A DNA stretch of 64,000 bases from contig WGMJ01000014.1 in the NCBI GenBank assembly GCA_016125135.1, positions 62,001 to 126,000 of the forward strand, written 5' to 3'. Below, one piece after another: positions 34,104-37,313 of the stretch. Source of the stretch: Alphaproteobacteria bacterium. Its GTDB lineage: Bacteria; Pseudomonadota; Alphaproteobacteria; Micavibrionales; Micavibrionaceae. Position 1 is the first letter of the stretch. Each line of letters opens with the position of its first letter. A model generated the notes under the pieces. The model was not told the DNA's origin. It was given only the letters and a program-made list of their open reading frames with translations, and ran no database searches. The position numbers and the translations under genes were made by a program.

Positions 34104-34638
34104 TGCAAACCCGGAATCAGCGAACCCGCAGGAAGACATGGATGACGGCGTGGAGATGTTCCACCGCGTGAACCGCCTGAAAATGAAGACGGGCCTTCTG
34201 CCGAATGATGACAACGTATTCCGCATCGAGAAAGAAAAAGTCGACAGCGCGCAAGTGATTATCGAGAGCAAGGCCTCGCTTTACCCGAACGAAGTGAAGA
34301 ATGTTCTGAATGCGCTTGATAAGGCGTGGCAGGACTCCAAAAAGGCTGCAACACGGGATAAAGCCAAGCCGCATCTTGAAAAGCTTTTCCACAAAGCAAA
34401 CCAGATCAAGGATCTTGCTTCAACGTTCAGCTATGTCTTGATGCAATATTTCGGTATGAGCTTGCGTGACTTTATTGAAAAAATTGATATCGAAAATCCG
34501 AAACACCTGATTATCGTGCAGGCACACATCGATGTTATGTGGGTTGTGCTGAACGAGAACATCAAGGATGAGGGCGGCGACAAGGCCAAAGAACTGAAGA
34601 TGATTGTCGCCAAAGCGATCGAAAAATACAGCCAGTAA
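34090..34638 (+). CDS. Helical protein with degenerate Hpt-like segment
   Basis: 182 residues, no family firmly recognised. The first 60 residues are charged and probably flexible. At 101-116, HKANQIKDLASTFSYV resembles the histidine phosphotransfer signature (A-H-x-I-K-x-x-A-x-x-F) but Asn104 stands where the phospho-accepting His would be. So it may be a non-phosphorylatable Hpt fold that binds the overlapping CheY-like protein. The flanking helices (61-90 and 120-180) fit a four-helix bundle. The call is from motif shape and gene overlap only. Confidence 0.55.
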   Translation: MSSSDANPESANPQEDMDDGVEMFHRVNRLKMKTGLLPNDDNVFRIEKEKVDSAQVIIESKASLYPNEVKNVLNALDKAWQDSKKAATRDKAKPHLEKLFHKANQIKDLASTFSYVLMQYFGMSLRDFIEKIDIENPKHLIIVQAHIDVMWVVLNENIKDEGGDKAKELKMIVAKAIEKYSQ

Positions 34639-34782
34639 AAAATTAGCTTGGAAGGGCATCTGCAGTGTCAAACGCGTGCTCGAAACGCGTGTACCTTTAA
34701 GTACACTTGCCTTTCTGCGCGCGCTTTTTCCCCGCATCTGCCTCTTCTAAAATAATTTTTAGAGTGCGCTTATAAAAAACTC

Positions 34783-34810
34783 TTGCAGTGCAAAATTTTT
34801 GTGCTATTTA
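34783..34810 (+). promoter_or_regulatory. Candidate promoter of the decarboxylase leader
   Basis: TTGCAG (34783-34788), 16-base spacer, TATTTA (34805-34810). Start of transcription would be near 34817. Upstream, 34639-34782 has no gene; it holds an inverted repeat GTGTAC/GTACAC (34689-34706) and a repeated ACGCGTG, meaning unknown. Confidence 0.4.
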
Positions 34811-34829
34811 TTTCCTTACGTATGTGCCT

Positions 34830-34883
34830 ATGGCCCCCGACCTAAAACCCGTGAAGGTGTTTTTCTCCTACAAGGCATACTAA
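34830..34883 (+). CDS. Candidate leader peptide, 17 residues
   Basis: ATG 34830, peptide MAPDLKPVKVFFSYKAY then stop. No clear ribosome site, but a GTG inside the same frame (34851) is also possible. The end is rich in Lys, Phe and Tyr. Lies in the decarboxylase leader; a sensing role is inferred only from position. Confidence 0.35.
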   Translation: MAPDLKPVKVFFSYKAY

Positions 34884-34893
34884 GGGATCGGTT

Positions 34894-34920
34894 ATGCAAC
34901 AGCGTAAACTACTTGTTTAA
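34894..34920 (+). CDS. Candidate leader peptide MQQRKLLV
   Basis: ATG 34894 with an AAGGGAT ribosome site six bases ahead; eight codons then stop at 34918-34920, two bases before the GGAGC stem. Contains Arg and Lys. Enterobacterial speF is controlled by an ornithine-sensing leader peptide (SpeFL); a similar but unrelated device could act here. Confidence 0.45.
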   Translation: MQQRKLLV

Positions 34921-34961
34921 CCGGAGCGTAAGCTCCTCTTGATCTTGGGTTTACTGTTGAA

Positions 34962-36176
34962 ATGATCACCTTGAAACGTGGGGGGCGCGCCACTGCATCG
35001 CGCCGTGCTGGTTTATCGAAATTCAAGCAAAAGCGAGCCATGCCTGCGGCCAAGCAGCGCAAGTGCCAACCCTTGCATGACTGGGTTTCCCAGAATCGTC
35101 CTGCTTTGCCTGTTTCTGTTCTTTGGCCTGAGAAGGTGGAAGCGAATGCCCGTAATTTCGCTCGCGGGTTCAAGGGCAAGGTAATGTACGCCGTGAAATG
35201 CAACCCCGACCCTGAGGCCATCAAGGCAGTTTATCGTGGCGGTGTTAGGCGCTTTGATGTGGCCTCGCTCCACGAGATTGCACTGGTGAGCGACCTTCTG
35301 CCCGATGTAACGCTTTACTTCATGCACCCCGTTAAGGCGCCGGAAGCGATCCGTAAAGCTTACAGCAAATACGGTGTGCGTAAATTCGTGCTCGATAGCG
35401 AGGAGGAACTGCTGAAAATCATGCGCATGACAGATTGCGCGACCGACCTTGATCTGTTTGTCCGCATTGCTTTGCCAAAGCATGATGGGGCAGGTGTGGC
35501 TCTGCACGGCAAATTTGGTGCTTTACCGGACGAAGCTATTTCGTTGCTACAAAAGGCAAGGGCTGTGTCTCGTAAGCTGGGTGTCAGCTTCCATGTAGGC
35601 TCTCAGTGTATGGAGCCAGAACTTTATGCACAGGCCATTCGCTTAACGGCAGATATAATTGACCGTGCGGGCATCAAAGTGGATGTGCTTGATGTCGGAG
35701 GCGGGTTTCCATCGCATTATCCCGATATGACACCACCTGCAGATCATGTTTATTTTTCGACCATTCACCGTGCTATAGCAGAGTGTGGGTTGAAAGGATT
35801 AGAGCTGATCTCGGAGCCCGGGCGCAGGCTTGTAGTGGATGCTGGCGCGATTGTGGCCCGTGTTGAGGGCCGCAAAAATGATTTGCTATATCTAAATGAC
35901 GGCGTTTATGGCGGATTGTATGATGCAGGGCCTTCAGTGCGTTTCCGCTTCCCCGTAGCATTGCTGAGAAGTCGGTTACGGGGCATGAAATCGCAGGCCG
36001 TCTTCCGCTTTGCAGGACCCACTTGCGACTCCCATGACATGATGGAGGGCCCTTTTAGTTTGCCGGATGATGTTGCTGAAGGCGACTGGATCGTTTTCGA
36101 GCGTATGGGGGGGTATAGTGATACGTTCCGTACCAATTTCAACGGCTTTGCGGAATATCTGAAGATATATCTCTGA
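34962..36176 (+). CDS. Type III PLP-dependent ornithine/lysine decarboxylase
   Basis: 404 residues from ATG 34962; the first 40 are basic and poorly conserved, so a later start (for example 35041) is possible. Alanine-racemase-fold barrel: PLP Lys79 in MYAVKCNPDP, FDVASLHEIALV, FHVGSQCMEPELY, LDVGGGFPSHY, ISEPGRRLV, and Cys355 in AGPTCDSHDMM at the dimer active site. Decarboxylates ornithine (or lysine) to putrescine (or cadaverine), the first step of polyamine synthesis. The long leader in front suggests polyamine or amino-acid feedback control. Confidence 0.92.
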   Translation: MITLKRGGRATASRRAGLSKFKQKRAMPAAKQRKCQPLHDWVSQNRPALPVSVLWPEKVEANARNFARGFKGKVMYAVKCNPDPEAIKAVYRGGVRRFDVASLHEIALVSDLLPDVTLYFMHPVKAPEAIRKAYSKYGVRKFVLDSEEELLKIMRMTDCATDLDLFVRIALPKHDGAGVALHGKFGALPDEAISLLQKARAVSRKLGVSFHVGSQCMEPELYAQAIRLTADIIDRAGIKVDVLDVGGGFPSHYPDMTPPADHVYFSTIHRAIAECGLKGLELISEPGRRLVVDAGAIVARVEGRKNDLLYLNDGVYGGLYDAGPSVRFRFPVALLRSRLRGMKSQAVFRFAGPTCDSHDMMEGPFSLPDDVAEGDWIVFERMGGYSDTFRTNFNGFAEYLKIYL

Positions 36177-37089: not shown

Positions 37090-37115
37090 ATTACCTTCAC
37101 GAGGTGGAGATAAAA

Positions 37116-37313
37116 ATGCCAGTAGCAAAAAAGAAAGCCGCTAAGAAGCCTGCAGCTAAAAAAGCTGTAAAGCGTCCAGCAGCTAAAAGAGTAGCTAAAA
37201 AAGCAGCTAAAAAGCGCCCAGCAGCCAAAAAAGCTGCAAAACGCCCAGCTGCGAAAAAAGCTGCGAAGAAGCCTGCTAAACGCAAGGCGAAGCGCACAGC
37301 TAAGAAAAAGTAA
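37116..37313 (+). CDS. Histone H1-like Lys/Ala-rich DNA-binding protein
   Basis: 65 residues from ATG 37116, GAGGTGGAG ribosome site. The whole chain is made of KKAAKKPAAKK / KRPAAKK-like units (Lys, Ala, Pro, Arg only, after an initial PVA), like the C-terminal tail of eukaryotic H1 and the bacterial histone-H1-like proteins (HC1, BpH1, AlgP-type repeats). Expected to bind and condense DNA. Strong own terminator follows, so it can be expressed highly. Repeat number varies between strains in such genes. Confidence 0.85.
   Translation: MPVAKKKAAKKPAAKKAVKRPAAKRVAKKAAKKRPAAKKAAKRPAAKKAAKKPAKRKAKRTAKKK

Follow-up and report, generated by a model that had tools for sequence, protein, structure and literature searches.

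A divergent αr45/speF-type RNA domain in the leader of an alphaproteobacterial decarboxylase gene, and its possible role as a polyamine-linked switch

The leader of a lysine/ornithine-type decarboxylase gene in a member of the Micavibrionaceae carries, as comparison with related leaders indicates, a divergent copy of a conserved folded RNA that corresponds both to the small RNA αr45 and to the 5' domain of the alphaproteobacterial speF leader. This domain stands before genes of polyamine biosynthesis at most of the places where it occurs, and the two short open reading frames that overlap it in the window (the whole stretch of DNA analysed here, 64,000 nucleotides long) are not conserved as peptides. 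We infer a switch logic, a sign for it and a polyamine-linked signal, and with modest confidence regard the leader as a cis-acting RNA of the αr45/speF type that acts as a riboswitch-like switch for polyamine-biosynthesis genes by gating translation.

The decarboxylase locus

The decarboxylase belongs to the Orn/Lys/Arg/DAP fold-III family and is encoded on the forward strand, as are all features described below, at 34962-36176, with an ATG at 34962 and a leader of about 145 nt before it. The assignment comes from a Pfam match to Orn_Arg_deC_N (4e-37) and from a PDB sequence search in which the nearest solved structures are lysine/ornithine decarboxylases (2plj, 6.7e-36; 5gjm, 2.9e-34); at 33% identity, the enzyme and the ornithine decarboxylase (ODC) of locus L159 are paralogues. 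The enzyme is present in 65 of 115 related genomes (E<=1e-40), and further relatives were drawn from 80 loci of named genomes. Leaders are called Micavibrio-type below as a label of convenience, a Micavibrio MAG being among the named enzyme matches.

The source genome comprises 2.23 Mb in 23 contigs. Neither a spermidine synthase (PF01564 search) nor a homospermidine synthase (search without a positive control) was found in it, and thus the host may, tentatively, make diamines only. No sigma-70-like site emerged when the window was scanned for promoters, and a plasmid search gave no match. Upstream of the leader, a GTGTAC-GTACAC hairpin at 34689-34706, followed by a T-rich run, likely terminates the preceding gene, whose end is at 34638, and positions 37104-37313 (+) hold a 69-residue ORF that is Lys/Ala/Pro-rich and histone-H1-like.

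A conserved RNA domain in the leader

Many relatives of the window enzyme have CGCACGTGCC-TATGGCC ... GGTTATGCAACGACG upstream, and the consensus of the leaders, CGYA-CGUGC-CNM-UGGCC ... GGUUA-N-GC-N-ACG-R-CG, consists of two halves that pair with one another: P1a as CG/CG, P1 as CGUGC/GC-N-ACG with one bulged base, and P2 as UGGCC/GGUUA with two adjacent G.U pairs. The domain comprises a pair of short helices whose internal loops are conserved, and the stretch separating the two halves differs widely in length. In the window the domain with its closing pairs spans 34816-34907. Its 5' strand at 34819-34827 is made up of P1a (CG, 34819-34820) and P1 (UGUGC, 34823-34827) and pairs, with the support of covariation, with 34896-34904, and the 5' strand of P2 (UGGCC, with the tandem G.U) at 34831-34835 pairs with GGUUA at 34890-34894, where 90% of cells in a 56-sequence alignment are paired. 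The P2 loop at 34836-34889 is long in the window and varies in both length and sequence among relatives. The 3' strand, 34890-34904, placed by alignment and by a covariance-model match, leads from the GGUUA of P2 through U34895, the GC-A-ACA of P1 (34896-34901) and G34902 to the CG of P1a (34903-34904). Compensatory changes occur, one of them in the window itself, whose P1 is UGUGC/GC-A-ACA with U34823-A34901 in place of the consensus C-G; in locus L127 the same helix is CAUAC/GU-A-AUG.

Statistical support for the fold comes from two alignments. In A1, a plain MAFFT alignment of 56 sequences, 7 of 12 pairs have changes on both sides, and the 16 double-change cells compare with 2.8±1.4 in shuffles (0/500) and with 0-6 in slid versions; RNAalifold predicts P1 unaided. 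A first loose pattern also caught chance matches in coding regions, and false rows (L051, L067, L084, L085, L108, L135, L148) were removed by eye before A1 was made. Left out of the larger set of 112 sequences were L175, L258 and L275, which the scan had mislocated, L258 and L275 being real matches of model R1 at other coordinates. The rows of A1 were picked by a scan demanding at least four of five P1 pairs, and paired fractions of that scan are biased upward; because such a scan selects for P1 pairs, a sequence-only model, R2, was built. On 72 loci R2 matched 71, with 72 matches (L166 in two pieces, L286 none), and in the 70 distinct rows that it chose P1 is paired in 100% of cells, while the whole structure has 8 double-change cells against 1.0±0.9 in shuffles (0/500). 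A covariance model from this 70-row set, R3, which excludes the window's copy and includes a second copy from the same genome (L236), matches the window at 34816-34920 with 41.5 bits and E 2.3e-11, the sole match in 64 kb at E<=10; model R1, built with the window included, matches 34813-34928.

A conserved DNA site, either a promoter or an operator formed by the palindromic GCACGTGC, would account for the palindrome and for the TATAAT-like hexamer whose end frequently falls 6-11 nt upstream (33 of 42 leaders with a 5/6 match, a raw count without a shuffle control). It would not account for compensatory changes between strands that lie tens of nucleotides apart, and the window breaks the palindrome yet keeps the helix, all of which makes a DNA site in place of an RNA highly improbable.

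Short open reading frames in the leader

The original prediction saw in this leader two candidate leader peptides and a GNRA-type stem, and direct reading finds all three in the sequence. The ORF MQQRKLLV (ATG CAA CAG CGT AAA CTA CTT GTT TAA) lies at 34894-34920; its stop is followed by CC and then by GGAGC (34923-34927), GTAA (34928-34931) and GCTCC (34932-34936). A 17-codon ORF, MAPDLKPVKVFFSYKAY, reads ATG..TAA at 34830-34883 and falls mostly within the variable P2 loop.

As peptides the two ORFs fared poorly, since a set of 112 non-redundant leaders has no conserved start, stop or codon pattern for them, and both candidates were rejected for want of conservation in start, length and codons. 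The ATG of MQQRKLLV lies within the 3' strand of the conserved helix, at the P2/P1 junction, and is present in 75 of the 112 leaders; in the other 37 it is replaced (by AAG, CAG, ATA, ACG or TAG). In eleven of the 75 a stop comes immediately after the ATG, as it does (ATG-TAA) in the other copy that the window's genome carries, and the equivalent ORF ranges among relatives from 1 to >80 codons, with a Shine-Dalgarno-like 4-mer before its ATG in 4/75. Changes that destroy the ORF leave the helix intact, as with ATG TAA in L011 and L127 and ATA in L116 and L139. On this non-conservation MQQRKLLV was judged to be no functional peptide gene. For the 17-codon ORF, an ATG stands at the start position in 50/112 leaders, and the 17-codon length is found only in the window (L001).

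Leader control of an ornithine decarboxylase by a peptide is established for SpeFL of Enterobacteria, and by analogy MQQRKLLV and/or the 17-residue ORF could encode leader peptides through which the ribosome senses ornithine or a polyamine. Both ORFs do exist in the window, and among the 75 leaders with the MQQRKLLV-equivalent ATG, 64 have at least two codons, the frame often being M(Q/L)RR. This frame recurs, however, because the RNA core GC-N-ACG-R-CG spells it, and a conserved peptide of the SpeFL kind is absent from the 112 leaders; with the ATG so often lost or followed by a stop, ribosome sites so rare and base changes that follow the helix, a role for either peptide is very improbable.

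The GGAGC-GUAA-GCUCC hairpin at 34923-34936 forms the tip of the start-region hairpin P3. The stem of the original prediction is thus real as a feature, but taken alone its 5 bp rise above chance only weakly (2 terminator-like sites against 0.6 expected in shuffles); most relatives examined have some hairpin at the P3 position, of a sequence unrelated to that of the window. Many relatives have a different short ORF further downstream, at a start codon that in the window is the enzyme's own. In L002, L007, L025, L026 and L112 this putatively RNA-gated start begins a short reading frame containing WGHxxP; the motif may belong to a peptide, or may simply be what a GGGGC-GCCCC hairpin immediately past the start codon reads as when translated.

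Relationship to αr45 and the speF leader

The analysis supports the original proposal in so far as the decarboxylase, of ornithine/lysine type, has a regulatory leader akin to the speF leader of Alphaproteobacteria. The link runs through αr45 (RF02347, 'Alphaproteobacterial sRNA ar45'), which shares with the window element a CGCACGUGCC ... GCAACGACG core, a P1 with a single-base bulge, a variable insertion on top and a place at the 5' end of an ODC leader. The two differ in that αr45 has in Rfam a GCCC/GGGC outer stem and U6, both absent from the window, in that the P1 of the window has a changed pair, and in that RF02347 is filed in Rfam as an independent sRNA whereas the window element is part of a cis leader. 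The RF02347 model (cut-off 40 bits) has no match in the window, none at E<=10 in 34600-35100 and none in the window's own genome. R3 matches the window and 9/9 ar45/speF loci, its alignment having contained other ar45-type rows (L164, L166, L168, L174). An Rfam search of the window and 17 loci of the class found nothing at the element, which therefore falls under no other named family.

The speF leader (RF00518) likewise precedes a COG0019-type decarboxylase, but there the enzyme is ODC, the paralogue of the window decarboxylase, and the conserved bulged stem-loop of about 80 nt that RF00518 models gives no match in the window. A search with this covariance model (cut-off 37 bits), the check suggested originally, found nothing in the window or its genome. 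Its matches lie in 4 of 142 genomes of the class, and in 4/4 this core stands immediately 5' of them; the model begins about 20 nt after GCAACGACG, and cmscan of L159 and L162 named the core 5' of RF00518 as RF02347 ar45. The conserved 5' domain also fits the description of the speF element in Corbino et al. 2005, according to which it starts with a conserved sequence near the transcription start, followed by a stem topped by a large insertion, and the original statement that the speF leader has no settled mechanism agrees with that text. PMC7717549 and PMC12403871 treat αr45 as an sRNA without an assigned function that is expressed apart from speF, and the listings of the open-licence PMC papers searched describe no mechanism or polyamine riboswitch for the αr45/speF RNA.

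Distribution and downstream genes

The 5' domain is far more common than Rfam detects, R3 having matches in 84 of 385 alphaproteobacterial genomes against 13/385 for RF02347 (both E<=0.01). R1 matches 73 of the 385 (E<=0.1), the R1 and R3 samples being largely identical, as well as 51 of 115 near relatives (E<=1; G101 and G104 only by weak matches of 0.4-0.9) and 10 of the 80 named-organism loci, including Belnapia, Roseomonas and uncultured alphaproteobacteria. Sampling across the phylum (299 genomes, an unstated share of them from outside the class) yielded 18 matched genomes, all of the same class.

The first downstream gene was recorded at 150 distinct places (130 + 20), with families assigned by tblastn using queries from these loci and with Pfam support for AdoMet_dc, Sacchrp_dh, SSF, GNAT and GATase. 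At 132 of the 150 it is a gene of polyamine biosynthesis: a speF-type ODC (70), a window-type decarboxylase (54), a homospermidine synthase (6) or SpeD (2). The name homospermidine synthase is here a reading from the Sacchrp_dh match and the place beside ODC, which comes next in 5 of the 6 cases, and no NCBIfam model gave that name. Nine places precede genes without a known polyamine role (an ATP-grasp-like protein at 5, a GNAT acetyltransferase with a carboxylesterase at 2, a sodium/solute symporter at 1 and a glutamine amidotransferase at 1), and the last nine are unclassified, 5 lying at contig ends, 3 having E>0.4 and 1 preceding an unknown ORF. To judge from these family assignments, the genes downstream of the αr45-type domain form a polyamine regulon.

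Among the minor arrangements, the second copy in the window's genome (L236, G000:C23:120632-120746) precedes the GNAT acetyltransferase and carboxylesterase, and the same gene pair occurs at the relative L237. The ATP-grasp-like protein, of about 580 residues and without a good family match, follows the RNA at L240-L244, in five genomes that all belong to a single family within the same order, and is possibly a polyamine-conjugating ligase. At L238 a second copy in one genome stands before the sodium:solute symporter, a candidate polyamine or amino-acid transporter, and at L339, which alone among the unclassified places is free of both a weak match and a contig end, the RNA precedes an unknown 136-residue ORF.

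The genomic positions bear on whether the domain works through a protein or a trans-acting RNA instead of a small molecule, or is itself a trans-acting, Hfq-bound sRNA. According to PMC7717549, the αr45 of S. meliloti reportedly co-immunoprecipitates with Hfq and was proposed to act in trans, and Corbino et al. 2005 state that six metabolites were tested and that none bound the A. tumefaciens speF RNA. Set against this, 132 of 150 copies stand in cis ahead of genes for polyamine biosynthesis, some genomes having two such genes and a copy before each, and no separate locus type was seen among the 150 places, so that this explanation is judged unlikely.

A predicted switch at the start region

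Translational riboswitches combine a compact conserved domain before metabolic genes with an exclusive fold that hides the ribosome site. Window-type leaders resemble them in having a compact conserved domain and may also share an exclusive fold over the ribosome site. In the proposed mechanism the domain would have two mutually exclusive states: when it is folded, the ribosome-site/start region of the downstream ORF would be freed, and when it is unfolded, its 3' strand (34897-34910 in the window) would pair with 34948-34959 and hide that region, the balance being set by a signal tied to polyamine metabolism, either a small molecule or a protein. In the free MFE structure of the leader, the 5' half of this alternative helix consists of CAACA (34897-34901) and GUAAACU (34904-34910) and excludes P1 and P1a; the 3' half, supported by folding energies and complementarity, consists of GGUUUAC (34948-34954) and UGUUG (34955-34959) and covers the ribosome-site region before the start codon. 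The 3' strand of the domain can take part in P1 and P2 or in a helix with the ribosome-site/start region, and either fold rules out the other.

In most leaders the core is followed, some 50-70 nt on, by a start codon that has a ribosome site and begins either the enzyme, as it does in the window, or a short ORF; in the 90 leaders with such a start, the frame stays open throughout the stretch read in 27 and closes within 59 codons in 63. When P1/P1a are forced, accessibility of the ribosome-site/start region rises by >0.05 in 58 of 87 leaders and falls in 3, with a change from 0.16 to 0.68 in the window, and it is this rise that leads to the prediction that the folded domain is 'on' for translation. 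In the same 87 leaders the core 3' strand pairs with its own start region at -9.0 kcal/mol, against -6.8 kcal/mol for shuffled start regions; as controls, the 5' strand of the domain and the region 40-68 nt downstream do not exceed shuffles. The partners of the core 3' strand differ by group: CAACA/UGUUG in the window, CAACG/CGUUG plus GGUUAU/AUGACC in L015, UGCAAC/GUUGCA in L214 and L226, AGCAAC/GUUGCU in Belnapia L038 and GCUAC/GUAGC in L223.

The bases right after the core also pair with the ribosome site, at -10.2 kcal/mol in 36 Micavibrio-type leaders, against -7.7 for swapped and -4.8 for shuffled partners; L002, L003 and L005 form here helices of 12-13 bp that differ in sequence. In 54 other leaders the effect is weak (-9.9 own, -8.8 swapped, -8.5 shuffled). 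Swapping start regions among relatives costs little (rank 0.49 in the Micavibrio type, 0.42 elsewhere), and the complementarity is therefore conserved rather than clearly co-evolving; the longest exact run between the P1 3' strand and the start is in slight excess, 4.08 against 3.57 in shuffles, the energy-based comparisons giving a clearer though still tentative signal. Nearest-neighbour energies favour the alternative over the folded domain by 9.9 kcal/mol in the window and by >1 kcal/mol in 76 of 87 leaders, and the folded domain would thus need co-transcriptional folding or a partner. Eleven of 35 Micavibrio-type leaders have no competition (ddG<=1).

Leaders that are not of the Micavibrio type have an outer stem, in most cases GACGC/GCGUC, with CUUUUUGG immediately after it. 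This arrangement is terminator-like and would make αr45 the short RNA of a stopped leader, the folded domain then being 'off' for transcription; in groups with such a stem, the proposed switch may itself also stop transcription in this way. The transcriptional and translational predictions are opposite in sign. Taken as the whole mechanism, attenuation would make the entire 5' domain a terminator hairpin, such that a bound signal stops transcription at the U-tract and leaves αr45, with read-through otherwise. The GCCC/GGGC stem followed by UUUUUU in the ar45 of Rfam is in keeping with this, as are the separate short αr45 transcripts recorded for Bartonella (PMC7717549) and Methylosinus (PMC12403871). 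Most Micavibrio-type leaders, however, lack the outer stem and adjacent U-run, as does the window, where P0 is only UUA/UAA plus CG/CG, followed by ACUACUUGUUUAA. Moreover, the tract is just 4-5 U in many leaders and is able to pair with the ribosome site CCGAGAGGG, and sequence by sequence the outer stem P0 is not above shuffles. Attenuation alone is accordingly rated rather unlikely, and because the window has neither outer stem nor U-tract, the translational reading is preferred there.

We know of no established natural bacterial riboswitch for a polyamine, and none is named in the titles or abstract openings of the papers that literature searches listed. A wider and more tentative proposal, held with something less than even confidence, is that the domain represents a riboswitch class across the Alphaproteobacteria that senses a polyamine or a precursor, for example homospermidine, agmatine or arginine, and controls ODC, the lysine/ornithine-type decarboxylase, homospermidine synthase and SpeD through an aptamer whose 3' strand would alternate between the aptamer fold and the start-codon region, with αr45 and the speF leader as two halves of one leader.

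Implications

Rfam lists the speF leader and αr45 as unconnected orphans, the former as a leader and the latter as an sRNA, and here they appear as adjacent pieces of one leader. Small natural variants exist, such as the window leader of only about 145 nt. With an RNA of about 90 nt, defined helices and few candidate signals, a question that has been open since 2005 becomes directly testable.
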